A model generated the notes under the pieces. It was not told the DNA's origin and did no database searches. It saw only the letters and a list, made by a program, of their open reading frames with translations. A program made the position numbers and the translations under genes. Shown one piece after another: positions 44,591-63,919 of a stretch of 64,000 nucleotides of DNA; position 1 is the first letter of the stretch, and each line of letters begins with the position of its first letter. Where the stretch lies: positions 2,852,001-2,916,000 of the forward strand of contig NZ_KK073874.1 of assembly GCF_000585375.1 (NCBI RefSeq), written 5' to 3'. Source of the stretch: Cryptosporangium arvum DSM 44712. Its GTDB lineage: Bacteria; Actinomycetota; Actinomycetes; Mycobacteriales; Cryptosporangiaceae.

Positions 44591-44696
44591 TCTATACCCG
44601 CGTGGAGGGCATGGTGAAGGTCATGGACCCGTCAATGTCGTTTCTCCGTACCGGCCAGCGGAACGCTTGAGTTGTAGTGTGTGATCGTCATACAAT
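44591..44696. promoter_or_regulatory. Divergent promoter region with GntR-motif site A
   Basis: On the plus strand TTGAGT (44667-44672) and TACAAT (44691-44696) are 18 bp apart, with the expected start at about the SDR ATG. ATCGTCATACAAT at 44684-44696 (complement ATTGTATGACGAT) covers that -10. On the minus strand TATAGA (44596-44591) could be the -10 of the CoA-transferase operon, inside GCGGG/CCCGC arms. Confidence 0.6.
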
Positions 44697-44702
44697 CGAC
44701 GA

Positions 44703-45434
44703 ATGGATTCGACGGCGGTGGTCACCGGGGCGGCGCGGGGTATCGGACGGGAGGTGGTCCGGCGGCTTCGCGCGGAGGGCTACCGGGTGGTCGCGGTCGA
44801 CCGGGACCCCGGGGTGGCCGCGCTGGCCGAGGACGGCCGGGTGGTGACCGTCACCGCGGACGTCACCGCGGACGACACGCCCGCCGCGGCGATCGGCCGG
44901 GCGGTGAGCGAATTCGGGCGGCTCGACCTGCTGGTGAACAACGCCGCGCGCTTTCTCCGCCGGTCGATCGCCGACACCACCGACGACGACTTCGACACGT
45001 TGTTCGCGACGAACGTCCGGCCGGCGTTCCGGCTCGCCCGGGCCGCCCTCCCGCACCTGGAGCGCACGCGCGGCAGCATCGTGAACACCGCGTCGATCTC
45101 CGGGCTCGTCGGCGTCGCGAACCAGAGCGTCTACGCGATGACGAAGGGAGCGATCGTCCAGCTCACCCGGCAGCTCGCGATCGAGTACGCGGCCCGCGGC
45201 GTGCGGATCAACGCGGTCGCGCCCGGCGCCGTCGACACCGGGTTCATGGACGAGGCACGCCGGGCCGACCCGGACCCCGCGGCGAGCCTCGCGGTCACGC
45301 TGGGCAACCATCCGATCGGACGGATGTCGACGCCCGACGAGGTCGCCCGCGCGATCGTGTTCCTGGCCGCTCCGGAGTCGTCCGGCATCACCGGCACGAT
45401 CCTGAGCGTCGACGGCGGCTACGTCGCGCGCTGA
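44703..45434 (+). CDS. SDR-family oxidoreductase
   Basis: The 243-residue classical short-chain dehydrogenase has TGAARGIG (cofactor), NNAARF, the Ser region NTASISG and the catalytic YAMTK. The Asp after the second strand (VAVDRD) favours NAD(H). It may oxidize a hydroxyacid intermediate. There is no RBS and the predicted transcript begins at the ATG, suggesting leaderless translation. The 3' end overlaps the convergent gene by 16 bp. Confidence 0.92.
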   Translation: MDSTAVVTGAARGIGREVVRRLRAEGYRVVAVDRDPGVAALAEDGRVVTVTADVTADDTPAAAIGRAVSEFGRLDLLVNNAARFLRRSIADTTDDDFDTLFATNVRPAFRLARAALPHLERTRGSIVNTASISGLVGVANQSVYAMTKGAIVQLTRQLAIEYAARGVRINAVAPGAVDTGFMDEARRADPDPAASLAVTLGNHPIGRMSTPDEVARAIVFLAAPESSGITGTILSVDGGYVAR

Positions 45435-46174
45435 GCCTCCTCCAGCAGGATCGGGGCGGCCGAGGTGACCGAGTGGATGCCGAGCACGGAGGCGATCTCC
45501 ATGACCTCGAGGATCTCCCGGGGGGTCGCGCCGTACCCGATCGCGTTCTCGATGTGCAGCTTCAGCCCGCTGACGTACAGGTGCGTGGCCGCCGTGTCGA
45601 ACGCGATGTAGACGAACTCCTTGACCTTCGGCTCGAGCGTCCCGCTCCGCCACGGCAGCGAGGAGAACTCGGTGTACGCGGCGAACATCTCGGGGTCGAG
45701 TTCCAGCATCTCGTCCCAGAACGAATGCCAGTAGCCCCGCGTCGCGGTGAAGTCCGCCTTCAGCCGTTCCTGGTACTCGTCCAGCGGCGCCGGCCCGTTC
45801 CGCAGGCCCTTCTCCTCGAGCACCTGGACGAGAACCGGCACGCCGACGTTCATCGCGTGGATACCGAGCGTCGCGGTGAGCTCCAGCACCTCCATGATCT
45901 CGGCCGGGGTGGCGCCCAGCGACAGCGCCGCCCGGATGTGCTGACGCACGCCCGGCAGGTACAGGTGCGTGGCGTTCGCGTCGATCGCGATGTAGAGGAA
46001 CTCCTTGACCTTCGGCTCGAGCGTGCCGGTGCGCCACGGCACGGCCGACAGGTTCAGGTACGCGGCCAGGAACTCCGGGTCGAGCCGGAGCACGCTCTCC
46101 CAGGTGTCGCTCCACGTTCCGCGCACCCGGACGAACTCCTGCTTGATCTCTTCCTGCCGTGCGGTGAGGGTCAT
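45419..46174 (-). CDS. Double-domain carboxymuconolactone decarboxylase (CMD)-family protein
   Basis: The 251-residue protein is an internal duplication. The halves (residues about 1-125 and 126-251) share LEPKVKEFLYIAID/LEPKVKEFVYIAFD, ATHLYLPGVRQHI/ATHLYVSGLKLHI and GATPAEIMEVLELTATLGIHAM/GATPREILEVMEIASVLGIHSV. The CxxC of AhpD is absent, so peroxidase activity is unlikely; a decarboxylase or isomerase role is inferred. It is the last gene of the large operon, and its start overlaps the dehydrogenase stop (TGATG). Confidence 0.88.
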   Translation of the reverse strand: MTLTARQEEIKQEFVRVRGTWSDTWESVLRLDPEFLAAYLNLSAVPWRTGTLEPKVKEFLYIAIDANATHLYLPGVRQHIRAALSLGATPAEIMEVLELTATLGIHAMNVGVPVLVQVLEEKGLRNGPAPLDEYQERLKADFTATRGYWHSFWDEMLELDPEMFAAYTEFSSLPWRSGTLEPKVKEFVYIAFDTAATHLYVSGLKLHIENAIGYGATPREILEVMEIASVLGIHSVTSAAPILLEEAQRAT

Positions 46175-47034
46175 GCCGACGCGTCCTTTCGCAGCCAGTT
46201 CACGATCTCGGTGTGGTCGGCGTTCGGCTCGAGTGCCTCGGCCGCGCGGGCCCACAGTTCGACGGCCGCGTGGCCGAGCGGGTCGGGCGCGCCCACCTGG
46301 TCGGCCAGGCCGGTCGCGATCCGCATGTCCTTGAGCATCAGCCGCAGCCCGAAGCCCGAGTCGTACGTGCCGGGCAGGATGAAGTTCGGCCACTTGTTCT
46401 CGGTCGATCCGCTCCGGCCGCTGGAGCCGTTGAAGATCGACACCATCGTCTCCGGGTCGAGGCCGAAGCGTTCGCCGGCCAGGATCGCCTCGCTGGTCAC
46501 CAGCAGGTGGGTGGCCGAGAGCAGGTTGTTCAGCGCCTTGACCGCGTGGCCGCTGCCGACCGCGCCGGTCCGGGTGACGGTGCCGAGCGGCGCCAGCACC
46601 GGCGCTACGCGGTCGAGGTCGGCCGGCTCGCCACCGGCCATGATCGTGAGCGTCCCGGTGCGGGCCCTGGCGACCCCGCCGGAGACCGGGGCGTCGACGA
46701 GCGTCACGCCCCGGGCGGCCAGCTCGGCCGCCAGTTCGCGGGTACGCAGGGGCTCCGACGAGCTCATGTCGACCACGACCGTGCCCGGCCCGGCGACGAA
46801 TCCCTCGTCGTGCAGGGTCGCCCCGACGGCGGAGGAGCCGGGCAGCATCAGCACGACGACGGAGGCGTCGCGGACCGCGTCGGCCAGGGTGTCGGCTGCC
46901 GTTCCGCCGAGCTCGGCGAGCGCGCGGAGGGCCGCCGGGTCCAGGTCGAACCCGTGTACGGCGTGATCCGCGCCGAGCAGGCGCGCCGCCATCGGCGCAC
47001 CCATGTTGCCCAGGCCGACGAACGCGATCGTCAT
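46171..47034 (-). CDS. 3-hydroxyisobutyrate dehydrogenase-like (beta-hydroxyacid) dehydrogenase 1
   Basis: The 287-residue protein has NAD motif AFVGLGNMGAPMAARLL and substrate loop DAPVSGGVARARTGTLTIMAGG. The catalytic Lys region is GSGHAVKALNNLLSA. It probably oxidizes a beta-hydroxy acid or tartronate-semialdehyde-type compound. ATG 47034 overlaps the cupin stop (ATGA). Confidence 0.92.
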   Translation of the reverse strand: MTIAFVGLGNMGAPMAARLLGADHAVHGFDLDPAALRALAELGGTAADTLADAVRDASVVVLMLPGSSAVGATLHDEGFVAGPGTVVVDMSSSEPLRTRELAAELAARGVTLVDAPVSGGVARARTGTLTIMAGGEPADLDRVAPVLAPLGTVTRTGAVGSGHAVKALNNLLSATHLLVTSEAILAGERFGLDPETMVSIFNGSSGRSGSTENKWPNFILPGTYDSGFGLRLMLKDMRIATGLADQVGAPDPLGHAAVELWARAAEALEPNADHTEIVNWLRKDASA

Positions 47035-47402
47035 GACGTGTACTCCGCGTCGGAGACCTCGTCGGCCCACCGGGTGACGCCGAGCGAGATCGCGGTGTGC
47101 GAGAGGAACGAGTCGGTGGTGGCGCCGTGCCAGTGCCGTTCACCGGCGGGCACCCACACCGTGTCGCCGACCGCGAGCGCCTGCGGCGAGCCCCCGTCGG
47201 AGCAGATCAACCCCCGGCCGGCGAGCACCTGGAGGATCTGCCCGTGCTCGTGGGTGTGCCAGAACGTGCGCGCTCCGGGCGTGAAGAAGACCGTGGTGAT
47301 CGTCGTGCCGTCGGTCCCAGGCAGCACCGGATCGAACCACGCCTCGCCGGTGATCGTCGCCGGACGCTGCTCGGACGGACCTGGTCCACGGACGATCTTC
47401 AT
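47031..47402 (-). CDS. Small cupin-domain protein
   Basis: The 123-residue single cupin has motif 1 FWHTHEHGQILQVLAGRG (HxH plus E/Q pattern) and motif 2 PAGERHWHGA, enough for a metal-binding site. It is similar to small cupins found with hydroxyacid dehydrogenases and CMD proteins. It may be an isomerase, dioxygenase or decarboxylase. It overlaps both neighbours by 4 bp. Confidence 0.88.
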   Translation of the reverse strand: MKIVRGPGPSEQRPATITGEAWFDPVLPGTDGTTITTVFFTPGARTFWHTHEHGQILQVLAGRGLICSDGGSPQALAVGDTVWVPAGERHWHGATTDSFLSHTAISLGVTRWADEVSDAEYTS

Positions 47403-48292
47403 GACGTCTCCTCATCCGGAGTGTGCAGGCGGACCCCACCGGAGAGGTCGCCGATGGCGTCGACGACCCTGTTGCTGATCTCGTCGGCGTAGCCGAGCGC
47501 CCGGGCCAGCCCGAAGCTCGCCAGCGGACCGGCCGAGTTCGGGCTCGCGACCCCCAGCCGCGCCACGAGCTCGACGTAGAGGTTGACGTCCTTGAGCATC
47601 AGCGTGTTCGTCAGCCCACCGCGCAGGTAGTCGCCGTGGACGATCTTCGGGAACCGGTTGAGCGTCGCGAAGTTGACGCCCGATCCGGCGTTGAGCACGG
47701 CCAGCAGCACGTCGAGGTCGAGCCCGGCCTTCTTGCCCGCGACCATCACCTCGGCGGTGGCCGACAGCGCGATCGCGTTGAGGAAGTTGTTCAGCAGCTT
47801 CACGGTGTGCCCCGACCCGCTCGGCCCGCAGTGGAAGATCGTCGCGGCGAACAGCTCCAGCACCGGCCGCGCCTGCTCCAGCACGTCGGGTGCGCCGCCG
47901 ACCATCAGCGTCAGCGTGCCCTTCTCGGCCGCGGCCGCCCCACCGGACACCCCGGCGTCGAGGTAGGCGGCACCGCGCTCGGCCAGCCGCCGGTGCATGC
48001 GGACGGTCGATTCGGGCGCGGCGGTCGAGAGGTCCACGACGATCTGCCCCGGCCGTGCGCCGGGCAGCACCCCGCCGAGCACGACGTCCTCGACCGCGGC
48101 GCTGTCGGGCAGCGACAGCAACACCAGGTCGCTGGCGGCGGTGACGTCCGCGACCGAGGACGCGGGGGACGCCCCGGCGTCGACCACGTTCGACGCGCGC
48201 ACGTCGAAGCCGAGCACGGGGCGACCCGCGCCGGTGATGCGGGCCGACACCCGCCCGCCCATGTTGCCGAGCCCCACGAAGCCGACCCTCAT
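47399..48292 (-). CDS. 3-hydroxyisobutyrate dehydrogenase-like dehydrogenase 2
   Basis: The 297-residue protein has VGFVGLGNMGGRVSARI, DAGVSGGAAAAEKGTLTLMVGG and GSGHTVKLLNNFLNA with the catalytic Lys. It is only distantly similar to the copy at 46171 (different N-terminal and C-terminal segments), so the two probably act on different intermediates. ATG 48292 overlaps the MBL stop (TGATG); GTG 48298 is an alternative. Confidence 0.92.
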   Translation of the reverse strand: MRVGFVGLGNMGGRVSARITGAGRPVLGFDVRASNVVDAGASPASSVADVTAASDLVLLSLPDSAAVEDVVLGGVLPGARPGQIVVDLSTAAPESTVRMHRRLAERGAAYLDAGVSGGAAAAEKGTLTLMVGGAPDVLEQARPVLELFAATIFHCGPSGSGHTVKLLNNFLNAIALSATAEVMVAGKKAGLDLDVLLAVLNAGSGVNFATLNRFPKIVHGDYLRGGLTNTLMLKDVNLYVELVARLGVASPNSAGPLASFGLARALGYADEISNRVVDAIGDLSGGVRLHTPDEETS

Positions 48293-49098
48293 CAGCACTC
48301 CTCTCCGATCGTGGCCGCGAGCCCGGCGAGCACGCCGCCGGTGACCGGCGTGAACCGGCGCAGCGTGTCGGGGTCGTGGCCGGTCACCAGGTGGCGCACC
48401 GCGCCGGACGCGAGCTGCCCGCGGATCCGCGCGAACGCGTCGTACATCGCGACCACGTCGGCCACCTGCGTGAACGGCATGTCCCGCTGGTACTCCTCGT
48501 AGTAGTGCACCGAGTCCGAGGCCAGCAGGACGACGCCGTCGCTGGTCTCGGCGGTGACGACGCTCTGCCCCGGCGTGTGGCCACCGACCCGCGTCACCAG
48601 GACGCCGGGGGCGACCACGACCGAATCGGTGAACGGGCGCAGCCGGCCCTCGGCCCCCGCCTGACGCAACCGGTCGATCTCCGCGTCCTCGACCGAGTGG
48701 TGCACGAGCGTGCGGCCGGCGTGCGGGCCGGTCCAGAACGCGTACTCGGCCGCCGCGATCGTCAGCGGGGACGCCGGGAACAGGTCGAGGTTGCCGATGT
48801 GGTCGTAGTGCGCGTGGGTGATCACGACCGGTGGACCGGCGCCCCGGTCCACTCCGAGCGCGTCGAACGCCGCCACCGGTTCGACGAGCGTCGTGCGGTT
48901 GCGGCGGGCGCCACCCGCCGCGGAGAAGCCGGTGTCCACCACGACCGTGCGTGCGGAGTTGCGCAGCACCCAGAAGAAGTAGTCCATGCCGATCGGCCCG
49001 TCCGGCTCGGCGTACAGGTGGTGGTTGAGGTAGACCTCGCTGCGCACGGTCTGCCGGGTCCCGTAGCGCACGATCGTGAGCTGGTACCGCTCGCTCAT
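48292..49098 (-). CDS. MBL-fold metallohydrolase (lactonase-like) 1
   Basis: The 268-residue protein has the zinc motif HAHYDHIGN, then VVDTGFSAAG before it and GGHTPGQS and LVTGHD after it. The layout resembles AHL/lactone hydrolases. In this context it may hydrolyse a lactone or cyclic ester formed in catabolism rather than a signal. It overlaps the DUF6282 gene by ATGA. Confidence 0.9.
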   Translation of the reverse strand: MSERYQLTIVRYGTRQTVRSEVYLNHHLYAEPDGPIGMDYFFWVLRNSARTVVVDTGFSAAGGARRNRTTLVEPVAAFDALGVDRGAGPPVVITHAHYDHIGNLDLFPASPLTIAAAEYAFWTGPHAGRTLVHHSVEDAEIDRLRQAGAEGRLRPFTDSVVVAPGVLVTRVGGHTPGQSVVTAETSDGVVLLASDSVHYYEEYQRDMPFTQVADVVAMYDAFARIRGQLASGAVRHLVTGHDPDTLRRFTPVTGGVLAGLAATIGEEC

Positions 49099-50051
49099 GT
49101 CAGGAGCAGCCGGCCGCCGTTGCCGCCCAGCAGCCGCCGGATGTCCGCCTCGGCGAGACCGGCGTCGAGCAGCCCGCGCGCGGCCCGCCGGTAGAGCGTC
49201 ACCGGCAGCGGGTTGGTCTTCTGGCCCGAGTCCGAGGACAGGATCGTCTGCTCGACGCCGACGGCCTTGATGAACGAGAGGAGCTCGTCGAGGCTGCGCC
49301 GCCGCTCGGGCTTGCCCCAGTACATGATCGCGCAGTGCTCGATGTAGACGCCCTGGCGCGCCCACGCGGCCGCCTGCTCCACCGACGCCCCGACGACGAA
49401 CACCGGGTGGTTGATCAGGATGCGTCCCACCCCGGCCTCGATCGCGGCGTCGATCAGCGCCTGCGACTCGGTGACGCCGAGGTGCCCGCAGGTCAGCACG
49501 GCGTCCTCGGCGGCGATCACCGCGAGGATGTCACGCACCTCCGGCAGCACCGCGCCGTTCTCGCCGAGGATCGAGATCACCTCGTTGTCGCGCAGCCGCA
49601 CCTCCGGCGTCGGGAAGCCGGTGTCGTGGTGCTCGTGGTGGCTGACGTGGGCCGCCGACGAGAGCGTGGGGAACCACACCATCCGCCCGCCCATGCGCAG
49701 CGCGAGTTCGACCGCGTACGGGTTGAGGCCGCCGACCGTGCGGTTGAGCGCGATCCCGCCGTAGACCTCGGTCGGGAGGTCGTCGAGCCCGGCCGCACGC
49801 AGCGCCAGGATGTCGGTGACCATGCTGTGGTGGTGCGACTTCGCCACGATCGCGCGGAATCCGGCCGCCGACGCGTCCCGGGCGGCGTCGAGGATGCTCA
49901 TCCGCCGCGGGAACGGGCTCGGCCCGGGGTGCTGGTGCAGGTCCACCGCGCCGACGAGCAGCGCGTCGGCCTCCGGGTCGGGTGTCGCGCGGTCCTCGTC
50001 GGCGGCCGGGTTGAACGGGTAATCGACTGCAGTCACGTGGAACGTCCTCAC
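49095..50051 (-). CDS. DUF6282-family amidohydrolase-like protein 1
   Basis: The 318-residue protein has metal-ligand-like motifs in TIM-barrel order: DLHQHPG, KSHHH, LTCGHLG, INHP and LSSDSG. This is the amidohydrolase pattern with divergent spacing seen in DUF6282. It has a paralog at 63018 in a similar gene context. It probably hydrolyses a C-N or C-O bond; the substrate is unknown. It starts 1 bp after the ABC ATPase stop. Confidence 0.82.
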   Translation of the reverse strand: MRTFHVTAVDYPFNPAADEDRATPDPEADALLVGAVDLHQHPGPSPFPRRMSILDAARDASAAGFRAIVAKSHHHSMVTDILALRAAGLDDLPTEVYGGIALNRTVGGLNPYAVELALRMGGRMVWFPTLSSAAHVSHHEHHDTGFPTPEVRLRDNEVISILGENGAVLPEVRDILAVIAAEDAVLTCGHLGVTESQALIDAAIEAGVGRILINHPVFVVGASVEQAAAWARQGVYIEHCAIMYWGKPERRRSLDELLSFIKAVGVEQTILSSDSGQKTNPLPVTLYRRAARGLLDAGLAEADIRRLLGGNGGRLLLT

Positions 50052-50052
50052 C

Positions 50053-51075
50053 TTAGGAAGAGACCGGGATCTGGTCCTCGGGGCGCCAGTGGGCGATCAC
50101 CGGTGTGCCCGGCGCCGGTGCCGGCGGCGAGCCGGCGGGCAGCACCCCGCAGCCGACCGAGTCGTCGCCGAACGCGAGCTCGATCCGCGAGTACGTGCCG
50201 TAGAACGAGACGTCGGTGACGGTGGCCGGCGCGGTCTTCGCGCCCGGCGGCACCGCGGCGTCGTCGAGGACGACACCCAGGCGTTCGGGCCGGACGATCG
50301 AGTCACCGAACACGTTCGACTCACCCAGGAAGCGCGCCACGAACCTGGTCGGCGGCCGGTGGTAGAGCTCGGCGGGCGTGCCGAGTGCGACGATCCGGCC
50401 CTGGTCGAAGATCGCGATCCGGTCCGAGAGCGTCATCGCCTCGTCCTGGTCGTGCGTGACGAAGACGAACGTCAGCCCCAGTTCGTCGTGGAGCCGCTTG
50501 ATCTCCCGCTGCAGCGACTGGCGCAGCTTGCGGTCGAGCGCGCTGAGCGGCTCGTCCAGCAGCAGGACGCTGGGGGAGAAGACGACCGCGCGGGCCAGCG
50601 CGACCCGTTGTTGCTGCCCGCCGGACAGCTCGTGCGGACGCCGGTCGTCCAGGCCGGTCAGGTCGACGAGAGCCAGCGCCTCGCCGACCCGCCGGGTGAT
50701 CTCGCCGGCCGGGACCTTCCGCTCGCGCAGCGGGAACGACACGTTCTGGGCCACGGTCAGGTGGGGGAAGAGCGCGTAGTTCTGGAACACCATGCCGAAG
50801 TCGCGCTTGTTGGGCGGCGTCCGGGTGATGTCCTGGCCGTTGAGCCGCACGTGGCCCGACGTCGGCTCGGTGAAGCCGACGATCATGTTGAGCGTCGTCG
50901 TCTTGCCCGAGCCGCTCGGCCCCAGCAGCGTGATGAACTCACCCGGTTCGATCTCCAGGTCGATCGAGTCCACCGCGGTGTTGCCGCCGTAGGTCTTGCG
51001 GAGGTCCACGAGCTCGACCCGGCCGCCGCGGGCGCTGATCGTCGGCGCTTCCGGAACCGCCGTTCGGAGTTTCAC
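50053..51075 (-). CDS. Polyamine-type ABC transporter ATPase, PotA-like
   Basis: The 340-residue protein has Walker A GPSGSGKTT, Q-loop VFQNYALFPHLTVAQNV, LSGGQQQRVALARAV, LLLDEPLSALD and VTHDQDEA. A C-terminal TOBE domain starts near residue 265. GTG 51075 with AAGGAGAGG upstream overlaps the permease stop (GTGA). It powers uptake with the fused permease and binding protein. Confidence 0.94.
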   Translation of the reverse strand: MKLRTAVPEAPTISARGGRVELVDLRKTYGGNTAVDSIDLEIEPGEFITLLGPSGSGKTTTLNMIVGFTEPTSGHVRLNGQDITRTPPNKRDFGMVFQNYALFPHLTVAQNVSFPLRERKVPAGEITRRVGEALALVDLTGLDDRRPHELSGGQQQRVALARAVVFSPSVLLLDEPLSALDRKLRQSLQREIKRLHDELGLTFVFVTHDQDEAMTLSDRIAIFDQGRIVALGTPAELYHRPPTRFVARFLGESNVFGDSIVRPERLGVVLDDAAVPPGAKTAPATVTDVSFYGTYSRIELAFGDDSVGCGVLPAGSPPAPAPGTPVIAHWRPEDQIPVSS

Positions 51076-52772
51076 CGCGTACCTCTCCTTCTCCACACCT
51101 GTGCGATCAAGATCGGGACGCTGACCAGCACGACCATCAGGCTCGACGCGGCCGAGATCGTCGGGTCGATCTCGACGGTCACGCTGTTGAACATCTGGAC
51201 CGGCAGCGTCGTCGCCCCGGGGGCCTGCAGGAACAGCGCGATGACGACCTCGTCGAGCGAGGTAACGAACGCCAGCACGGCGCCGGACAGGATGCCGGGC
51301 AGCACGAGCGGCAACGTCACCTTGCGGAACGTCGACACCGGGCCGGCGCCGAGGCTCGCGGCCACGCCGGGCAGCCGGTCGTCCATCCCCTGCAGCCGCG
51401 CGGTCACCGCGATGATCACGAACGGCAGCGCCACGGCCGTGTGGGCCAGGATGATCCCGAACAGCGTGCCGTTCAGGCTCAGCCGCAGGAAGGCCGCGAA
51501 GACCACCAGCCCGACCAGGATGTGCGGCACGATCATCGGCGAGAGCAGGAACCCGTTGAGCGGTCCCCGCCAGTGCGGGCGCAGCCGGGCCAGCCCGAAC
51601 GCGGCCGCGGTGCCGAGCACGGTCGCGAAGAGCGCGGTGACGAGGCCGGCCTGGAGCGAGTTGAGGATCGCCGCGATCCACTCCGGCGAGCTGAATAGCT
51701 CCCCGTACCAGCGCAACGACCAGTCCTCGGGCGGGAACCGGAACGTCGGCGAGGCCGAGAAGCTCATCGGGATGACGACGAGCGTCGGGGCGACCAGCAG
51801 GATCGCGACGACCACGGTGTGCCCGGCCAGCCAGGGACGCATCGCCGAGGCCTGCTCGCCCCCGCCGCGGGAGCGGGTGGGGCTGCCCCCGACGACGGCG
51901 GTGGTCCCGGCCAGCCGCCGGCTCAGACCGAGGACCAGCAGCGTGACCGCGAGCAGGAAGATACCCATCGCGCCGGCTCCGCCGAAGTCCAGCAGCTCCT
52001 TCGTGCGGACGTTGATGACCTGGGCGATCATCGCGTTGCGGGTGGAGCCGAGCAGCGCGGGCGTGACGTAGAAGCCCAGCGCCAGTACGAACACCAGCGA
52101 CATGCCGGCCACCACCCCCGGCAGCGACAGGGGCAGGTAGATCTTCCGGAACGCCCGCGCCCGCGACGCGCCGAGGCTCTGGCCCGCCGCCACCAGTCGC
52201 CCGTCGATCTGCTCCATCGCGCTGTACATGGGCAGCACGAGGAACGGCAGGAGCACCTGGGTCATCGAGATCGCGACCGCGGTGGTGCTGCCGAGCAGCG
52301 TGACGTCGCCCAGGCCGAACAGCCGCAGGAAACGCTGGATCACCCCGCCGTCCTGCATCAGCACGAGCCAGGCGAAGTTCCGGGCCAGCATGCTCGTCCA
52401 GAACGGGACGAGCACGAGCGTCACCAGCACCGACCGCATCGCCGGCCCGACCAGCGTCATCGCGTACGCGTAGGGATAGGCCAGCAGCGCGCCGACGACC
52501 GCGACCGTCGCGGCGACGAGCAGGGTGCGGCCCAGTACCTGGAGCGTGTAGCCGTCGGTGAACAGCGACGCGTAGTTGCTCAGGCCGGTCGTCGGTTCGG
52601 TGACGCTGTCCACGACGACGCTGAGCAGCGGCAGGACGAACAGGATCCCGAGGGCGACCAGCGCCGGCAGCAGGAGCAGCCACCCGGACGCGTGCGCACG
52701 GACGATCCAGCCCGGGCGCCGCGCGCGGGACGGCTCCACCGGAGCCGGGGCGATGGTTGTGCTGGCGGCCAC
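51072..52772 (-). CDS. Fused PotB-PotC-type ABC permease
   Basis: The 566-residue protein carries two complete permease domains. Residues about 25-300 (PotB-like, EAA loop GRLVAAGQSLGASRARAFRKIYLPLSLPG) and about 320-560 (PotC-like, GVAASLGAGPVSTFRKVTLPLVLPG) are joined by a short linker GGSPTRSRGGGEQ. In most polyamine systems these are separate genes. The single chain forms the whole membrane channel. Confidence 0.93.
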   Translation of the reverse strand: MAASTTIAPAPVEPSRARRPGWIVRAHASGWLLLLPALVALGILFVLPLLSVVVDSVTEPTTGLSNYASLFTDGYTLQVLGRTLLVAATVAVVGALLAYPYAYAMTLVGPAMRSVLVTLVLVPFWTSMLARNFAWLVLMQDGGVIQRFLRLFGLGDVTLLGSTTAVAISMTQVLLPFLVLPMYSAMEQIDGRLVAAGQSLGASRARAFRKIYLPLSLPGVVAGMSLVFVLALGFYVTPALLGSTRNAMIAQVINVRTKELLDFGGAGAMGIFLLAVTLLVLGLSRRLAGTTAVVGGSPTRSRGGGEQASAMRPWLAGHTVVVAILLVAPTLVVIPMSFSASPTFRFPPEDWSLRWYGELFSSPEWIAAILNSLQAGLVTALFATVLGTAAAFGLARLRPHWRGPLNGFLLSPMIVPHILVGLVVFAAFLRLSLNGTLFGIILAHTAVALPFVIIAVTARLQGMDDRLPGVAASLGAGPVSTFRKVTLPLVLPGILSGAVLAFVTSLDEVVIALFLQAPGATTLPVQMFNSVTVEIDPTISAASSLMVVLVSVPILIAQVWRRRGTR

Positions 52773-52775
52773 GGA

Positions 52776-54786: not shown

Positions 54787-55602
54787 ATGCGTGGACTGGC
54801 CGGCAAGGTCGCGGTGGTGACGGGGGCGGCCGGGGGCATCGGTGCGGCCACGGCCGGGCGGCTCGCCGCGGAAGGGGCGCACGTGGTCGCCGTGGACACG
54901 GCGGACACGGTCGACACCGCCGGGCCGCCGTCCGCCGACGGGGTCTGGGTCCGGGCCGACGTGTCCACCGAGGAGGGCGTGGCCGCGTACGTCGACGCCG
55001 CGGTCGAGCGATTCGGCCGCATCGACCTGCATCACCTCAACGCCGGGATCGCCGGCTCGCTGACCCCGCTGCCCGACGTGCCGGCGGCCGAGTTCGACCG
55101 GGTGATGGCGGTGAACGTCCGCGGGGTCTTCCTCGGGGTGCGGGCCGCGTTCCGGCAGTTCGCCGCGCAGGGCAGTGCCGGGAACATCGTGATCACCGGG
55201 TCGATCGGCAGCCTGCGGGGCAGCGCCGACCTGCTGGCCTACCAGACGTCGAAGCACGCCGTGGTGGGCCTCCTGCACGGCGCGGCGGTCTACGGCGGCC
55301 CGCTCGGGGTGCGGGTGAACGCGGTCGCACCCGGCATCGTGCCCACCGACCTGTTCGGGGCCCGGGGCCGGGACGACATGACCCGGCGGGCGTCCAGCAC
55401 GCCGCTGCGCCGGGCCGGCACTGGCGACGAGATCGCGGGGGTGGTCGCGTTCCTGCTGAGCGACGACGCCGCCTACGTGACCGGCGAACTGGTCTCGGCC
55501 GACGGCGGCGCGAACGTCGTGAGCACGGTCCGGCCCTCCGGCGGGGCGGGGGCCTGGGACTTCGCGGCCCACGACCGCGCGCTCTACGGCGCGAGGGGCT
55601 GA
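54787..55602 (+). CDS. SDR-family oxidoreductase 2
   Basis: The 271-residue protein has TGAAGGIG, VAVDTADT (Asp favours NAD), NAGIAG, a Ser in ITGSIGS and the catalytic YQTSK. The C-terminal extension of about 25 residues ends in the tandem-repeat DNA shared with the convergent TPP-enzyme gene. RBS GAGGAGGAG precedes the ATG. It probably oxidizes a ring or chain alcohol in the pathway. Confidence 0.92.
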   Translation: MRGLAGKVAVVTGAAGGIGAATAGRLAAEGAHVVAVDTADTVDTAGPPSADGVWVRADVSTEEGVAAYVDAAVERFGRIDLHHLNAGIAGSLTPLPDVPAAEFDRVMAVNVRGVFLGVRAAFRQFAAQGSAGNIVITGSIGSLRGSADLLAYQTSKHAVVGLLHGAAVYGGPLGVRVNAVAPGIVPTDLFGARGRDDMTRRASSTPLRRAGTGDEIAGVVAFLLSDDAAYVTGELVSADGGANVVSTVRPSGGAGAWDFAAHDRALYGARG

Positions 55603-57296: not shown

Positions 57297-57703
57297 CGGG
57301 CCGCGCCGTCCACGGCGGCCTCGGCGTGGACCTCCTCGATCGTGCGCTCGGCGACGCGGAAGGACTCCAGGGCGGCCGGGGCGCCGCAGTACGGCGCGGT
57401 CTGTAACAGCACCTCCTGGATCTCGGCCACCGTGCAGCCGTTGCGCAGCGCGCCCCGGACGTGCACCGCGAACTCGTGCGGGCGGTTCAGCGCGGTCAGC
57501 ATCGCCAGGTTGAGCAGGCTGCGCGTGCGCCGGTCGAGCCCGGGACGCGACCACACGTCGCCCCAGCAGCTCGCGGTCACGTACTCCTGCACGACGGCCG
57601 AGAACTCCGTGGCCCTGGCCATCGACCGGTCCACGTGCGCATCGCCGAGAACCTCGCGCCGGACCGTCTCGCCGCGCGCCAGCCGGCTCTCGTCATTCCT
57701 CAT
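57293..57703 (-). CDS. 4-carboxymuconolactone decarboxylase-family protein (PcaC-like)
   Basis: The 136-residue protein starts RLARGETVRREVLGDAHVDRSMARATEFSAVVQEYVT and has RTRSLLNLAMLTALNRPHEFAVHVRGALRNG. This is the PcaC pattern, with the conserved His near HVRGA. The ATG has GAGCGG upstream. It is coupled to the TPP-enzyme gene. PcaC-like homologs also occur outside protocatechuate pathways, and no other pca gene is near. Confidence 0.9.
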   Translation of the reverse strand: MRNDESRLARGETVRREVLGDAHVDRSMARATEFSAVVQEYVTASCWGDVWSRPGLDRRTRSLLNLAMLTALNRPHEFAVHVRGALRNGCTVAEIQEVLLQTAPYCGAPAALESFRVAERTIEEVHAEAAVDGAAR

Positions 57704-57724: not shown

Positions 57725-57748
57725 AATGTCGTACGATCATCATACAAT
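57725..57748. promoter_or_regulatory. GntR-motif site B upstream of CMD-TPP operon
   Basis: The complement of 57736-57748 reads ATTGTATGATGAT, one base from the consensus. A second, weaker copy (ATCGTACGACATT, complement of 57725-57737) abuts it. The pair lies 22-45 bp upstream of the CMD start. Confidence 0.65.
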
Positions 57749-57784: not shown

Positions 57785-58456
57785 CTACTCTTGCTCGGCG
57801 AGTGCGGTCAGCCCGGCGCGGCCGGCCGCCTCGACGTGCGCGGCGCAGGCCGCCGCGGTCGCGTCGGCGTCGCCGGCCAGTGCGGCGTCGACGATCGCGT
57901 GCAGTTCCCGGACGCTGTGTTCGAGCCGCCCCGGCACCGACATCGAGAGCGAGCGCAGAACGCTCACCCGGGCGTGCAGGCCGTTGACGACCGCGCGCAG
58001 CGCGTCGTTGCCGCCACCCTCGAACAACACGTCGTAGAAGGCGTCCTTCGCGGCCAGCAGCGGTGCGCCCTTGGCGGCCAGCCGGTCGATCTTTTCGACC
58101 GCGCGCACCAGCGCTCTGCGGTGCGCGGGGCCGGCGTTCTCGACGAAGAGCCGCCCGGCCAGTGCCTCCAGCGCCGAGCGCACCTGGTAGAGCTGGCGCG
58201 CCTCCTCGGCGCTCACGCTGGTGACGACCATGCCCCGGTTGGGGATCGCGGTGACCAGGCCTTCGGCGGCCAGCTCGCGCAGCGCCTCCCGGACGCTGGT
58301 GCGCGAGACCCCGGTGAGCTCGACCAGCTCGCGCTCGATCAGGCGCTGCCCCGGGGCGAGCCGCCGATCGAGGATCGCCTGCCGGAGGTTCTCGAGGACC
58401 TGCGAGCGGATCAGGGCCGGGTTCCGCTCGATGTGGAACGCGTCGGCTCGGGTCAC
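57785..58456 (-). CDS. GntR-family regulator, FadR/FCD subfamily
   Basis: The 223-residue protein has an N-terminal GntR wHTH (LRQAILDRRLAPGQRLIERELVELTGVSRTSVREALRELAAEGLV) and an FCD all-helical ligand domain (RSALEALAGRLF, AKDAFYDVLFEGGGN, LHAIVDAALAGD). FCD proteins sense carboxylic acids. It is the only GntR gene in a region with five copies of a shared motif, so it is the probable regulator. GTG start; it is divergent from the aldolase gene. Confidence 0.92.
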   Translation of the reverse strand: MTRADAFHIERNPALIRSQVLENLRQAILDRRLAPGQRLIERELVELTGVSRTSVREALRELAAEGLVTAIPNRGMVVTSVSAEEARQLYQVRSALEALAGRLFVENAGPAHRRALVRAVEKIDRLAAKGAPLLAAKDAFYDVLFEGGGNDALRAVVNGLHARVSVLRSLSMSVPGRLEHSVRELHAIVDAALAGDADATAAACAAHVEAAGRAGLTALAEQE

Positions 58457-58486
58457 CGCAGTCTCCCTCCGGATGGGGTCGCAGAC

Positions 58487-58525
58487 ATCGTACCGTTGTT
58501 TCAGATCGTATGACGATGCTACATT
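58487..58525. promoter_or_regulatory. Aldolase promoter with GntR-motif site C
   Basis: ATCGTATGACGAT (58505-58517) differs from the consensus by one base and fills the 18-bp spacer between TTGTTT (58496-58501) and TACATT (58520-58525). A weaker copy ATCGTACCGTTGT (58487-58499) precedes it by 18 bp. Binding would repress the aldolase operon and probably the gntR gene. Confidence 0.7.
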
Positions 58526-58557
58526 TTTGCGACCTCAAAACCCTGGTGGGGAGCGTT

Positions 58558-59337
58558 ATGCTACGAACGGGTTTCGCTCAGCGGCTGGCGCGGGCCGATC
58601 GGTGTCTGTACGGCACGTGGCTCAAGACCCCGGCGCTCGAGCCGGTCGAGATCCTCGCCGACGCGGGGTTCGACTTCCTCGTGATCGACCAGGAACACGC
58701 ACCGCTGACGCTCGAGTTCGCGTACGCGGCGACCGTCGCGGCGCAGGGCGCGGGGATGTCGGTGCTGGTCCGCGTGCCCGACCGGAGCGGCAGCCACCTG
58801 CAGCGGCTGCTCGACACCGGCGTCGACGGGATCCTGGTGCCACGGGTGACGTCGGTGGCCGAAGCCGACGCGGCCGTGCGTCAGATGACGTTCTCGCCGG
58901 CCGGTGAGCGCGGCATCGGCATCACGTCGCGGGCCGGGCGCTGGGGCGGCCTTCCGCGTGCGGAGTACCTGCGCTTCGGCGACGAGGAGGTGCTGCGCGC
59001 CGTCCAGCTGGAGGAGCGCGCGGCGATCGAGGCCGTCGACGAGATCCTCGACGTCGCCGGGCTCAACGGGGTCTTCCTCGGCATGGGGGATCTCCAGCTG
59101 TCGTCGGGGCTACCCGAGTCCGATCCCGTACTCCAGGAACTCGTCGACCGGTTACTCGCCGCCGCGCACCGGCGCGGGGTGCCCGCCGGCACCGCGGTGG
59201 CGACCGCGGCGCAGGCGTCCGCGGCCGCCGACCGCGGCTACCGGTTCGTGATGGTCAGCAACGACACGAGCCTGCTGCGCACCGCGGCGACGTCGGTCGT
59301 CCGGCAACTCGAAGAAGGAGCGTCTCATGGCGTATGA
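58558..59337 (+). CDS. HpcH/HpaI aldolase-family protein
   Basis: The 259-residue TIM-barrel class II aldolase has GTWLKTPALEPVEILADAGFDFLVIDQEHAP, VPRVTSVAEADAAV and FLGMGDLQLSSG. It is like 2-keto-3-deoxy-acid/4-hydroxy-2-oxoheptanedioate aldolases, which release pyruvate or an aldehyde. An earlier ATG at 58510 lies inside the operator, so ATG 58558 with GGTGGGGAG upstream is the start. It overlaps the cupin gene by 11 bp. Confidence 0.93.
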   Translation: MLRTGFAQRLARADRCLYGTWLKTPALEPVEILADAGFDFLVIDQEHAPLTLEFAYAATVAAQGAGMSVLVRVPDRSGSHLQRLLDTGVDGILVPRVTSVAEADAAVRQMTFSPAGERGIGITSRAGRWGGLPRAEYLRFGDEEVLRAVQLEERAAIEAVDEILDVAGLNGVFLGMGDLQLSSGLPESDPVLQELVDRLLAAAHRRGVPAGTAVATAAQASAAADRGYRFVMVSNDTSLLRTAATSVVRQLEEGASHGV

Positions 59338-60214
59338 CCCCACCGACCTGCGTTCCACGCTGCCGACCAGTTCGGGAGCGGCGCCGGACCGCGTCTCCGG
59401 CTCCGAGCACGTCGAGTTCCGCGACCTGCCTCCCACCGACGATTCGACCTGGTACGCCCGCGGCCAGAACTTCGTGGTGGGCTACTCCGAGGTGGACGGC
59501 GCGCTCACGTTCTCGCGTGACGGGCAGCCCGACGAGTACGTCGTGCTGCTGACCGACGACACGCTCGCCGCGACCGTCCGGGCCGGCGCCGAGGAGGTCA
59601 CGGCGAACGGCCGCACGATGCTGGTCGTGCCGCCGGGCGACAGCACGGTGACGGTCACCGGCCGGGGGCGGGTGATCCGCCTGCTGACGACGAAGTCGGA
59701 CGACGTCGCCGCGCTCGCCGCCAACGCGGAGTCCTACACGCGACCGCACGAGAACATCCCGCCGTTCGAGCCCTGGCCCGAGCCGCCGGGCGGCTACCGC
59801 GTCCGCAGCTACGACCTGACCGTGCCGCCGCTGGCGAACCCGGCGTTCCGGCTCTACCGCTGCACGACGTTCATGGTGAACTTCATCGATCCCAAGCAGG
59901 GCCCGCGCGACCCCGCGAAGCTCTCCCCCCACCACCACGACGACTTCGAGCAGTGCTCACTGGTGCTGGCGGGGGAGTACGTGCACCACATCCGCTGGCC
60001 GTGGACGACGAACAAGGCGAACTGGCGCGAGGACGAGCACCGCACGGTGTCCGCCCCGGCGGTGACCGTGATCCCGCCGCCGTCGGTGCACACCAGCGAG
60101 GCCGTCGGGCCCGGGACCAACCATCTGGTCGACATCTTCTCGCCCCCGCGTTTCGACTTCTCGGCGAAGGAGGGGTGGGTGTTCAACGCGGACGATTACC
60201 CGGCGCCCCGATGA
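59327..60214 (+). CDS. Cupin-fold protein of unknown function
   Basis: The 295-residue protein appears to have two beta-barrel halves. The C-terminal cupin has SPHHHDDFEQCSLVLAGEYVHHIRWPW with clustered His/Glu ligands and a later HTSEAVGPGTNHLVDIFSP. The N-terminal half has no clear metal site. It may be an isomerase or dioxygenase acting between the monooxygenase and the aldolase. I do not recognise a named family. Confidence 0.75.
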   Translation: MAYDPTDLRSTLPTSSGAAPDRVSGSEHVEFRDLPPTDDSTWYARGQNFVVGYSEVDGALTFSRDGQPDEYVVLLTDDTLAATVRAGAEEVTANGRTMLVVPPGDSTVTVTGRGRVIRLLTTKSDDVAALAANAESYTRPHENIPPFEPWPEPPGGYRVRSYDLTVPPLANPAFRLYRCTTFMVNFIDPKQGPRDPAKLSPHHHDDFEQCSLVLAGEYVHHIRWPWTTNKANWREDEHRTVSAPAVTVIPPPSVHTSEAVGPGTNHLVDIFSPPRFDFSAKEGWVFNADDYPAPR

Positions 60215-61644
60215 GGGTCGCGATCATCGGCGCCGGTCTCGGCGGGATCGCGGCCGCGATCAAACTCCGCCGCCGGACGTCGGCGACGGTCACGATCTTC
60301 GAGCAGTCCGCCGGGGTCGGCGGGACCTGGTTCGACAACCGCTACCCCGGGTGCGAGGTCGACGTGCACTCGCACGCCTACTCGTTCTCGTTCCTCCGCT
60401 ACGACTGGCCGCGTACCCACGCGACCCAGGCCGAGCTGCTCGAGTACGCCGAGCACGTGGTGGACCGCTTCGGGCTGCGCCCCCTGCTGCGCCTGAACAC
60501 CCGGGTGACCGACCTGGTGTGGGAGGAGTCGACGAACACGTACGTGCTCTCGACCGAACACGGCGACACCGAGGAGTTCGACGTCGTTGTCTCGGCGCTC
60601 GGCCTGCTCAGCGTGCCCCGCTACCCCGACTGGCCCGGGCTCGACACGTTCGCCGGCCCGTGTTTCCACACCTCGCGCTGGGAGGAGCACGACCTGACCG
60701 GCAAGTCGGTCGCGATCGTCGGCACCGGCTCGACCGCGGTGCAGATCGTCCCGGCGATCGCTCCGGCGGCCGCGAAGGTGCACGTCTTCCAGCGTCAGCC
60801 CGGCTGGATCGAGCCGAAGAACGAACGTGAGTTCAGCCCGCGGGAGCGGTGGGTGTACCGCCACGTCCCGCTGGCCCAGAAGCTCAACCGGGCCTGGATC
60901 TTCCACAAGGGAAACCGGCGGTTCAAGGGTTACGACACCGGGTCGCGGCGTCAGCGGCGCATGCGTGAGGTGTGCCGGCGGTTCATCGCGGCCACGATCG
61001 ACGCGCCCGAGACCCGGGAAGCGGTGACCCCGGACTACCCGTGGGGCTGCAAGCGGCCGGTGCTCTCGTCCACCTTCTACTCCTCGCTCAACCGGGACGA
61101 CGTCGCGCTGGTGCCGCACGCGGTGAGCCGGGTGACCCCCACCGGCGTCGTCGACGCGACCGGCGTCACCCACCCCGCCGACGTGCTGATCCTGAGCACC
61201 GGTTTCCAGCCGACGCGGTTCCTGGCCAGCCTGGACGTGAAGGGCCGGGACGGGCGCAGCATCCACGACGTCTGGCGCGAGCGGGCCGCGGCGTTCCTGG
61301 GCATCACCGTGCCCGGGTTCCCCAACTTCTTCATCCTCTACGGGCCGAACACCAACGGTGGCGTCTCGGTCATCGCGCAGCTCGAACGGCAGGCCGAGGT
61401 CGTCGTGCGTGCCGTGCGACGGCTCGAGCGCACCCGCCGGGCCAGCCTCGACACGTCGCCGGAGGCGGCGCGGCGCTTCACCGCGTGGATCGACCGGCGG
61501 ATGGCGTCGACCGCGTCGGCGATGGACGCCGGATGCCACAACTACTACCACGACGCGGCCGGCCACAACGTGACCCAGTGGCCGGGCGGGCACCTGGCCT
61601 ACGCGCTCACGACCCGGTTCCTGGACCGCTGGGGACTACGCTGA
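60211..61644 (+). CDS. Flavin-containing (Baeyer-Villiger-type) monooxygenase
   Basis: The 477-residue protein has FAD motif AIIGAGLGGIAAAI and GVGGTWFDNRYPGCEVDVHSHAY. The Baeyer-Villiger fingerprint F-x-G-x-x-x-H-x-x-x-W is met by FAGPCFHTSRW, and the NADPH site is IVGTGSTAVQ. It would insert oxygen next to a ketone to form an ester or lactone. That fits the convergent MBL hydrolase and the aldolase of its own operon. Confidence 0.93.
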   Translation: MRVAIIGAGLGGIAAAIKLRRRTSATVTIFEQSAGVGGTWFDNRYPGCEVDVHSHAYSFSFLRYDWPRTHATQAELLEYAEHVVDRFGLRPLLRLNTRVTDLVWEESTNTYVLSTEHGDTEEFDVVVSALGLLSVPRYPDWPGLDTFAGPCFHTSRWEEHDLTGKSVAIVGTGSTAVQIVPAIAPAAAKVHVFQRQPGWIEPKNEREFSPRERWVYRHVPLAQKLNRAWIFHKGNRRFKGYDTGSRRQRRMREVCRRFIAATIDAPETREAVTPDYPWGCKRPVLSSTFYSSLNRDDVALVPHAVSRVTPTGVVDATGVTHPADVLILSTGFQPTRFLASLDVKGRDGRSIHDVWRERAAAFLGITVPGFPNFFILYGPNTNGGVSVIAQLERQAEVVVRAVRRLERTRRASLDTSPEAARRFTAWIDRRMASTASAMDAGCHNYYHDAAGHNVTQWPGGHLAYALTTRFLDRWGLR

Positions 61645-62461
61645 CGTGCCCTCCGGCCAGCGACACCTCCGCCACGTGCAGACCGTCGTCCCACGTGGCG
61701 GAGGGGAAGCGGTCCCAGACGCCGGCTTCGTGGAACGGCAGCACCCGGCGGGTGTCGCCGCCGACGCCGCGCAGCATGGCGTCGGCGAAGTCGAGCCAGC
61801 CGGCGGCGCTGCCGGTCGTCATCGCGATCGGGGCGAGGACGCCGTCGCCGGAGAGCCCCTCGAGGTTCTCGTAGCTGTAGACGTTGTCCCCGGCGAACAC
61901 CCAGGTGTCGTCGACCACGACCACCTGGGAGCCGGCGGTGTGGGTGTCGTGGGCCGGCCGCAGCTCGATCCCGGGCGCGGGGCTCGCGACGCCGTCGACG
62001 AGGGTGGCCGGCCGGGTGGCCAGCTGCTGGGGCAGGTCGGCCTGGCACGAGCGGGTCAGGAACTCGAACCGGGCCGGCCGGCGCACCGCGGCCAGGTAGT
62101 TGTCGATCTCGCGCCGCTGGATCCAGACGTGCGCGCCCGGGAACGCGTCGACGCACCCGGCGTGGTCGAAGTGGTTGTGGGTCAGCAGGATCGTGTCGAC
62201 CTCGTCCGCCGACACCCCGACCCGGGCCAGGACGTCGACCGGGTGGGCCCAGCGGGTGTCGCCGTACTTGGCGGTGAGCCGTTCGGAGATCGCGGGGTCG
62301 GCGAACCCGGTGTCGACGAGCACGCACCGGTCCTGCGACCGGACCAGCCCGAAGCAGTACGGCATCCGGCGGTGTCCCGCGTTCGGTTGCGCGGCGAAGA
62401 GGTTGCTGGCGGGGAACCGGTCGACGTAGCCGTACTCGAGGATCCAGATCGAATGGCTCAT
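61607..62461 (-). CDS. MBL-fold metallohydrolase (lactonase-like) 2
   Basis: The 284-residue protein has VLVDTGFADP, the zinc motif HNHFDHAG, AHDTHTAGS and GDNVYSYENLEG. It is of the same general lactonase type as the protein at 48292 but only distantly similar. It overlaps the monooxygenase end by 38 bp (convergent) and the CMD gene by ATGA. It is a candidate hydrolase for a lactone product. Confidence 0.9.
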   Translation of the reverse strand: MSHSIWILEYGYVDRFPASNLFAAQPNAGHRRMPYCFGLVRSQDRCVLVDTGFADPAISERLTAKYGDTRWAHPVDVLARVGVSADEVDTILLTHNHFDHAGCVDAFPGAHVWIQRREIDNYLAAVRRPARFEFLTRSCQADLPQQLATRPATLVDGVASPAPGIELRPAHDTHTAGSQVVVVDDTWVFAGDNVYSYENLEGLSGDGVLAPIAMTTGSAAGWLDFADAMLRGVGGDTRRVLPFHEAGVWDRFPSATWDDGLHVAEVSLAGGHVSVVPSGPGTGS

Positions 62462-63021
62462 GCCGGCGGCCGGACGTCGAAGACCGCGAGCTGCAGGGCG
62501 ACCAGGTTGTAGTAGCCGACGATCGTGGTCAGCTCGAGCAGGCCGGGCGCGCCGAGCACCCCGGTCGCGTCGCGGAACTCGTCGTCGGTCAGGGTGCCGG
62601 TGGCGAGCATCGACGTGGTGGCGCGGAAGACGCCGGATTCGACGTCGGTGGCGCCGGCCGGCTCGCGGCCCTCGGACAGCGCGGTCAGGTCGTCCGGGCT
62701 CAACCCGGACGCGGCACCGGCCAGCCGATGGGCGTACAGCTCGAACTCGCTCCGGTGGTGGTGGCCGACGAGCAGGATCGCGATCTCCCGGGCCCGCGCG
62801 GGCAGCGCCGAGCCCCAGCGGACCGTGCTGCCGAGCTGCTGCAGCGCGGTGCCGAACGTCGGGTGGGTGATCCAGATCGCCGCCGGGCCCTGCAGCCGCC
62901 CGTCCGGGCCGACCAGCGTGAACGGGCTGCCCGGGGCGACCCGGCGCCCGGTGGTGTAGAGGTCGTAGAGGGGCCGCTGGTCGGCGGACAGGTCCGCGGG
63001 GTCGACCTCGTCGATTCTCAT
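62458..63021 (-). CDS. CMD/AhpD-like protein
   Basis: The 187-residue protein of the carboxymuconolactone decarboxylase superfamily has RAREIAILLVGHHHRSEFELYAHRLAGAASGLS and a C-terminal LLELTTIVGYYNLVALQLAVF. There is no CxxC. The HHHRSEFELYAH stretch, rich in His/Glu, corresponds to the usual E-x-x-x-H active helix. It overlaps neighbours on both sides by ATGA. Confidence 0.88.
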   Translation of the reverse strand: MRIDEVDPADLSADQRPLYDLYTTGRRVAPGSPFTLVGPDGRLQGPAAIWITHPTFGTALQQLGSTVRWGSALPARAREIAILLVGHHHRSEFELYAHRLAGAASGLSPDDLTALSEGREPAGATDVESGVFRATTSMLATGTLTDDEFRDATGVLGAPGLLELTTIVGYYNLVALQLAVFDVRPPA

Positions 63022-63908
63022 GCCGTCACTCCCAGGAACGCGCGGGGATTGGTGGAGACCATCGTGTGGAGCTGCTCGGCGGTCCAGCCGAGGTAGGCGA
63101 GTTGCTCGACGAACATGCGCAGGCACTCGGGTTCGGGCGGCACCCAGCGCGAGAACACGTCGGTGGTGAGGACGGCGTGGTCGGGGCCGACGGTCTCGAG
63201 TGCCGCGTGGACGTCGCGAAGGGTGAGGTGCGCGTCCGGGTGTACCAGCGGGGCGTTGCAGAACTCGACGAACGCGCCCAGCGCGACGTACTCACGCAGA
63301 TCCCTCGTGTAGTGCAGCGGATGGGTGATCAGGAGGCGCTGACCGATCGCCGCGCAGTACTCCGCGACCGCGAGGCTCTCGCGCGGGGACGCGTGCCCGG
63401 TGGCGAGCGCGAGGTCCAGCGCGCGGCAGGTGTCGACCACCGCCCTGGTCCGGCCGGTCAGAGCGCCGTCCGGACCGCAGAGGGCGATCGCGGTGCGTGC
63501 GGCGTAGTCGCCGAACGACGGCGCGATGCGCCCGAGCCGCGTGGCGATGTACCCGCCGCGCTCGACGTCGGCGGCGGCGCCCCAGGTGGGCAGGAAGACC
63601 ACCCGGGCGCCGTGCGCGGCGGCGAGTTCGACGACGCCGGGCTCCACGCCGCCGACCGGGGGATTGAGCGTGATGCTGCCGTGGACCTCGAACCCGGGGA
63701 CGCTCAGCGCCCGGGCCCGGTCCGTCGTGGGCCAGAGATGCGACTTGAGCACCCACCCCGCCATGCCGTACTCCGACGCCAGCCGCGCGACCTGCCGGTC
63801 GTCCCCGCGGTCGAGCATCCCGGCGGAGAGATCGGGGTAACCGTGGACGTGGAGGTCGATCGCGCCGCGGAGCAGTCGGTCGAAGTCCCGCGGCAGCGCA
63901 TCAATCAT
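63018..63908 (-). CDS. DUF6282-family amidohydrolase-like protein 2
   Basis: The 296-residue protein has DLHVHGYPD, LKSHLWPT, ALATGHAS, LITHPLHYT and LTTDVFSRW. These are amidohydrolase-type metal ligands in the same order as in the paralog at 49095. It is the first gene of a DUF6282-CMD-MBL operon. The ATG at 63908 overlaps the GntR-motif site D, so the exact start is uncertain. Confidence 0.82.
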   Translation of the reverse strand: MIDALPRDFDRLLRGAIDLHVHGYPDLSAGMLDRGDDRQVARLASEYGMAGWVLKSHLWPTTDRARALSVPGFEVHGSITLNPPVGGVEPGVVELAAAHGARVVFLPTWGAAADVERGGYIATRLGRIAPSFGDYAARTAIALCGPDGALTGRTRAVVDTCRALDLALATGHASPRESLAVAEYCAAIGQRLLITHPLHYTRDLREYVALGAFVEFCNAPLVHPDAHLTLRDVHAALETVGPDHAVLTTDVFSRWVPPEPECLRMFVEQLAYLGWTAEQLHTMVSTNPRAFLGVTA

Positions 63909-63919
63909 TGTATGACGAT
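63907..63919. promoter_or_regulatory. GntR-motif site D upstream of DUF6282 gene 2
   Basis: ATTGTATGACGAT is identical to the complement of site A. Within it and the following AC, GTAT-GACG-ATAC forms a short inverted repeat. It overlaps the annotated start codon. Confidence 0.65.

Follow-up and report, generated by a model that had tools for sequence, protein, structure and literature searches.

What controls the putative catabolic genes at one locus of Cryptosporangium arvum DSM 44712, and does an AT-rich 13-bp word that recurs in front of them serve as a shared operator? We addressed this question in a 64,000-nucleotide stretch of contig NZ_KK073874.1 (positions 2,852,001 to 2,916,000; this whole stretch is called the window, and coordinates refer to it). 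A reading of the sequence alone, hereafter the original prediction, had proposed that the word ties five promoters into one GntR regulon. Our analysis makes it very probable that the GntR-type protein encoded beside two of the sites, GntR1, is an autoregulated repressor of the surrounding catabolic island, acting through a 21-bp inverted repeat at the five promoters.

57785..58456, minus strand: gntR1, FCD-type (FadR subfamily) GntR regulator, 223 amino acids with a GTG start (Pfam).

The protein has an N-terminal winged helix (PF00392, GntR, 9.9e-19, residues 18-78) and a C-terminal FCD domain (PF07729, 4.7e-24, residues 88-209). No named NCBIfam GntR equivalog is above cut-off, the best being TIGR03338 with 102.8 bits versus 271.5.

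Is the recurrence of the word real? A scan of the window finds the 13-mer ATTGTATGACGAT exactly at 63907 (plus strand) and 44684 (minus strand), and with one mismatch at 57736 (minus strand) and 58505 (plus strand). These are the exact copies and one-base variants originally reported, and there are no others in the window at two or fewer mismatches. The four matches compare with 0.13 expected, and none of 100 shuffled sequences reached four. Throughout the 9,195,993-base genome, the same four places, all at promoters, are the only matches with at most one mismatch, and the reversed control yields none. Thus the motif is not equally common inside genes, and the claim that chance could hardly explain its recurrence holds. 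The core of the 13-mer is an odd palindrome, ATYGT-NNN-ACRAT, which has six exact places genome-wide, five of them between 44684 and 63977. This GT-N3-AC core is exact at 44684, 58505 and 63907 and has one mismatch at 54755, 57725 and 57736; a GT-N3-AC rule is described for FadR-subfamily operators in the available text of an earlier study (PMC4494728).

What, then, is the unit of recognition? Relatives were found through the GntR1 protein (R1) and their loci were then read for the motif. In the relatives' upstream regions the conserved stretch spans 21 bp rather than 13, and it forms an inverted repeat with the consensus ATTGTATGA-NNN-TCATACAAT. Within this repeat the 13-mer represents a single register, the left one before hpcH but the right one before sdr1 and d6282a. 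The degenerate extra copies mentioned in the original prediction correspond to a third half-site 8 bp from the 13-mer. The five predicted operators are the following.

44676..44696, plus strand: predicted 21-bp operator AGTGTGTGATCGTCATACAAT between caiB (minus) and sdr1 (plus), with an exact 13-mer; matrix score 30.3/30.7.
54747..54767, plus strand: predicted 21-bp operator ATTGTATGGTTGTCGGACAAT between iclR (minus) and sdr2 (plus); matrix score 28.7/29.5.
57728..57748, minus strand: predicted 21-bp operator ATTGTATGATGATCGTACGAC upstream of cmd1-tpp (minus); matrix score 31.6.
58505..58525, plus strand: predicted 21-bp operator ATCGTATGACGATGCTACATT between gntR1 (minus) and hpcH (plus); matrix score 29.7.
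63907..63927, minus strand: predicted 21-bp operator CCTGTAGTATCGTCATACAAT upstream of d6282a-cmd3-mbl1 (minus), with an exact 13-mer; matrix score 29.8.

The matrix was trained on 53 relatives' sites (33 distinct), gathered using anchors set by hand for each promoter. The genome of the window was left out, as were sites from L020 and L021 (d6282a), L009 and L010 (mbl2/sdr2), L077 and L078. Applied to 82 kb, this relatives-only matrix selects exactly the five promoters first named, at 28.7-31.6, and the next independent place, at 13.0, is a PxpR site discussed below. The form at 54747, formerly considered weaker, scores as a 21-mer like the other four. On 440 kb of background from the same genome nothing reaches 15 (maximum 13.6), and 12 simulated 82-kb sequences give a maximum of 14.8. 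Among the 53 sites, positions 1-9, 13 and 16-21 are rich in information, which rises to 2.8 bit per position within the 21 bp and is at most 0.8 bit outside. That the sites recur by chance or belong to a repeat element has therefore only a vanishing probability. Both readings were rejected on the genome scans, the matrix scores and the unconserved flanks, and the window and background scans contradict them as well.

The inner structure of the operator points to three half-sites. G4, T5, A9, A17 and C18 are invariant in 32 distinct aligned sites, and at sdr2 and cmd1 the outer half-sites (H1 and H3) are conserved more strictly than the middle one: H1 is perfect in 9/9 sites before sdr2 and 17/17 before cmd1, and H3 is perfect in 9/9 and carries one mismatch in 17/17, respectively. 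Symmetry about the centre of the 21-mer reaches r 0.63-0.76 within single promoter classes; the pooled value of r 0.97 is inflated, as registers were chosen so that H3 faces the gene. It is conceivable, if somewhat doubtful, that GntR1 reads this composite operator in an unusual manner. Two dimers might sit on overlapping 13-bp palindromes, centred 8 bp from each other, with the middle half-site in common. Alternatively, one dimer might span the outer half-sites, where GT and AC are separated by 11 nt rather than 3. The outer arm would be fused to the -10 element of leaderless-like promoters. As a separate observation, a 21-bp plan with a CTG/CAG centre occurs near R1-like genes of 41-52% identity, with matrix scores of 19-27.5 (L027:12617, L031:2190, L028:4602, L029:4437 and L030:4388). 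If the unusual reading is true, this CTG/CAG-centred plan in other bacteria would make it a trait of a whole FCD clade.

Which protein binds these sites? We assign them to GntR1 because the motif co-occurs with its gene. Among 18 other R1-bearing genomes (R1 identity 69-85%), 17 contain ATYGTATGAYRAT, with 22 matches and no control matches, and 20 of the 22 are within 15 kb of the R1 gene. A scan of 397 genomes from the order detected R1 (E <=1e-60) in two and ATYGTATGACRAT in nine, with three copies in this genome and one in each of eight others. Compared like for like, ATYGTATGACRAT is found in 13/18 R1-bearing genomes versus 8/395 without a detected ortholog (Fisher p ~1e-15, relatedness ignored). 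Three genomes of the same genus and one of the same family (G001-G004) have neither R1 nor the motif. The remaining two of the 22 matches are GntR1-type 13-mers away from the R1 locus, again just ahead of a gene, and may mark extra targets: one, at L077:9632, overlaps the start of a short-chain dehydrogenase gene, and the other, at L078:8115, the start of an unrelated oxidoreductase-like frame. Separately, the absence of gntR1 from the three other same-genus genomes searched raises the possibility that the island at 41128-63908 was gained horizontally.

Comparison of the same promoters in related strains reveals that the sites are kept where the GntR gene is present, the sdr1 site least so. 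Although most of the gntR1/hpcH gap cannot be aligned, the 13-mer before hpcH reads the same in the window and in 13 relatives' loci. A matching cmd1/tpp site is present in 17/18 relatives' loci, and the d6282a site in 14/14 loci that have d6282a. The sdr2 site occupies the same place in 9/12 loci, and two more (L009 and L010) carry it before an mbl2-sdr2 run. Four loci have an sdr1 ortholog at 80% or above, and two of these (L075 and L076) carry an sdr1 site of their own, which makes this site the least conserved of the five in GntR-bearing relatives. Taken together, the comparative evidence supports a GntR1 regulon that is real and of a known kind; the GntR regulon of the original prediction is favoured, with the 21-bp composite rather than the 13-mer as its unit.

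It is very unlikely that another regulator binds the sites, either the IclR-type protein (53877-54620) or the second FCD-type GntR protein, PxpR (68275-68913 in window numbering). The 54747 site does adjoin iclR, but sites are kept at loci whose examined stretch yielded no iclR (L009, L010 and L020-L023), and IclR was rejected as the binder on these grounds. The motif also persists at loci, such as L022 and L023, that share no regulator but GntR1. PxpR merits attention because its operators lie 24 bp from the 63907 site. However, they have a different centre and score at most 13.0 with the matrix in the window, and G001-G003 have PxpR orthologs but no GntR1-type site. GntR1 remains the favoured reader of the five operators.

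The intergenic region at 63.9 kb has the proposed GntR1-type site but also contains operators of a second GntR regulator, absent from the original prediction.

63943-63955 and 63963-63979, plus strand: two PxpR-type operators before the Nramp-pxpA operon, outside the GntR1 regulon.

Both are perfect palindromes, at 63943 and 63965, whose centre differs from that of the GntR1-type sites; they consist of ATTGTTGAACAAT and its complement, 22 bp apart. Positions 63963-63979 equal the published Corynebacterium glutamicum PxpR operator agattgttcaacaatct in 17/17 letters; mutation of that operator raised reporter activity 6.5-fold, according to the text available (PMC13274462). The downstream order is Nramp-pxpA-D-glutamate cyclase-pxpB-pxpC-gntR2, the third being a D-glutamate-cyclase-type gene. 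We conclude from these sequence matches that both palindromes belong to PxpR and not to GntR1. A single regulator for all palindromes in 63907-63977 was rejected, given that the centres differ and the TGA/TCA type is tied to pxp genes. An order-wide scan located this type in 16/121 genomes; of the 12 outside the genus, ten have it beside pxp-type or gntR2-like genes and two (L103 and L105) do not.

The PxpR operator may have a further target. ATTGTTGAACAAT also occurs in the proB-proA gap, before proA, at L007:8459-8471 (G000:C1:1584459). A PxpR-type site precedes proA in 4/4 genomes of the genus, all of which have gntR2, and G004 has neither. The exact site at the pxp promoter is present in G000 and G002 and missing in G001 and G003. 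On this basis we predict PxpR control of proA, a gene name that does not appear in the main text of the PxpR paper (PMC13274462), and the palindrome suggests that proline synthesis is linked to the sensing of 5-oxoproline. Alternatively, the proB-proA gap might contain a hairpin.

How might GntR1 act? Repression is inferred from the operator position, on the -10 element and in the spacer, and blocking of RNA polymerase would be the likeliest mode of control. By hand count, H3 fits a -10-type TANNNT in 42/53 relatives' sites. At hpcH, a -35-like TTGTTT stands 17 bp upstream of TACATT. The TACAAT of the sdr1 operator ends 6 nt 5′ of the sdr1 ATG, and the operator at 63907..63927 overlaps the first in-frame ATG (63908). 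In the window, H3 is followed by the start codon after 5 nt (d6282a) or 6 nt (sdr1); in 9/12 relatives the d6282a start codon comes 6-7 nt after H3. An activator or dual regulator is an unlikely alternative to a plain repressor. Weak -35 hexamers at several window promoters would suit a promoter that needs help, but an operator placed on the -10 element or between it and the -35 is usual for a repressor and not for an activator, and the sdr1 and d6282a operators, no more than 6 nt from the start codon, are in a repressor-like position.

In the repression model that we favor, GntR1 would bind ATTGTATGA-NNN-TCATACAAT as three half-sites with an 8-bp period. It would thereby control five units: gntR1/hpcH-cup2-fmo, cmd1-tpp, d6282a-cmd3-mbl1, sdr1/caiB and sdr2/iclR, the last taking in the transport and dehydrogenase genes behind iclR. 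As the right half-site often coincides with the predicted -10 box, a bound dimer would keep RNA polymerase off until GntR1 is released by a pathway intermediate, either an acid or a lactone. The substrate of the island is presumably oxidised by its dehydrogenases and Baeyer-Villiger-type monooxygenase.

Several observations weigh against GntR1 as reader and repressor of all five promoters. A profile search of the whole genome, made with every distinct 21-mer except one from L025 (32 of 33), gave four matches at E <=10. All lie in this locus, at 57728, 58505 or 63907, so that three of the five places were listed, with 44676 and 54747 falling short of the threshold. One locus with an R1 of 74% identity (L018/G407) has no site in 8.4 kb, and G025, with an R1 of 65%, offers weak candidates only (16.8-17.2). 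The order-wide R1 search scored only seven candidates per genome, so the 395 genomes of the comparison above may include some whose R1 was missed. L015 has no sdr2 site, and the sdr1 gene of L008 shares the d6282a site while that of L009 has none. In the window, TANNNT fits H3 at only 3/5 sites (hand count), and only sdr1 reaches 4/6 matches at the -35 position, with poor matches at cmd1, d6282a and sdr2.

What do the genes under this predicted control encode? Their products, on both strands, are as follows.

41128..44559, minus strand: caiB (CoA-transferase III), a cyclase-like gene and an MmgE/PrpD gene (Pfam).
44703..45434, plus strand: sdr1, short-chain dehydrogenase (PF13561).
45419..53831, minus strand: sbp, ABC permease, ABC ATPase, DUF6282, metallo-beta-lactamase-fold, two hydroxyisobutyrate-dehydrogenase-like, cupin and cmd2 genes (Pfam).
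53877..54620, minus strand: iclR, IclR-type regulator (PF09339, PF01614), the first in a tightly spaced minus-strand gene run to 45419.
54787..55602, plus strand: sdr2, short-chain dehydrogenase (PF13561).
55584..57296, minus strand: tpp, thiamine-diphosphate-dependent enzyme, acetolactate-synthase-like (PF02775, PF02776, PF00205).
57293..57703, minus strand: cmd1, PcaC-like carboxymuconolactone decarboxylase (PF02627; TIGR02425 at 142.6 bits, just under the cut-off of 155.7).
58558..59337, plus strand: hpcH, HpcH/HpaI aldolase (PF03328; HpaI-like, below cut-off).
59327..60214, plus strand: cup2, conserved protein of 295 amino acids in the hpcH-fmo unit, with homologues in relatives' loci.
60211..61644, plus strand: fmo, Baeyer-Villiger-type flavin monooxygenase (Pyr_redox/FMO-like).
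61607..62461, minus strand: mbl1, metallo-beta-lactamase-fold hydrolase (PF00753).
62458..63126, minus strand: cmd3, carboxymuconolactone-decarboxylase-like protein (PF02627).
63018..63908, minus strand: d6282a, DUF6282 protein (PF19799, 1.3e-49).

The run at 45419..53831 is probably an operon, judging from spacing only. The best PDB match of fmo is a cyclohexanone monooxygenase (2.4e-76); d6282a has no PDB match, and cup2 has no Pfam, NCBIfam or PDB match. The relatives' loci examined yielded no orthologs of caiB, the cyclase-like gene or MmgE/PrpD. The set of short-chain dehydrogenases, Baeyer-Villiger-type monooxygenase, metallo-hydrolases, HpcH aldolase, carboxymuconolactone-decarboxylase proteins and thiamine-diphosphate enzyme suggests that an alcohol or ketone is oxidised to a lactone or ester, which is then degraded.

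The analysis thereby supplies a candidate regulator, operator and gene list for a conserved but uncharacterised island of actinobacterial breakdown genes, among them DUF6282 and the gene of a second protein that belongs to no family. Likewise, the PxpR operator, known from Corynebacterium, is extended to this genus, with proA as a possible new target. Literature searches returned no paper on DUF6282 and none for the combined gene names; the search by operator words gave the PxpR paper as the only bacterial GntR regulon title among the matches listed, and no other search was aimed at the GntR1 regulon. No earlier description of this regulon was found in the literature searched by DUF6282, gene names and operator words.

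How does the proposed system compare with known ones, as far as the available text of each source describes them? PxpR of C. glutamicum is likewise an FCD-type repressor of a catabolic operon, but its centre is TCA/TGA versus the ATG/CAT of the GntR1-type site, and its pathway is that of 5-oxoproline (PMC13274462). LhgR of Pseudomonas putida W619 is also a GntR repressor, with operators TTGTCTGACAA and TAGTCTGACAA from which an organic acid releases it; it differs in its CTG centre and in the two promoters named (PMC8206213). NanR of Escherichia coli resembles the composite arrangement in placing several dimers of a GntR repressor on close-set half-sites. However, its sites are 6-bp direct repeats, (GGTATA)3, and its cooperativity needs a 32-residue N-terminal extension (PMC8012715), whereas the GntR1 half-sites are inverted at 8 bp and its helix-turn-helix match begins at residue 18. 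FadR-subfamily (FCD) operators in general share with GntR1 the palindrome, the TKGT/ACMA boxes, the 3 nt between GT and AC, and a site placed between the divergent regulator gene and its target (PMC4494728). The GntR1-type operator departs from them in that its 13-bp palindrome is embedded in a longer inverted repeat of 21 bp, whose outer GT and AC are separated by 11 nt.

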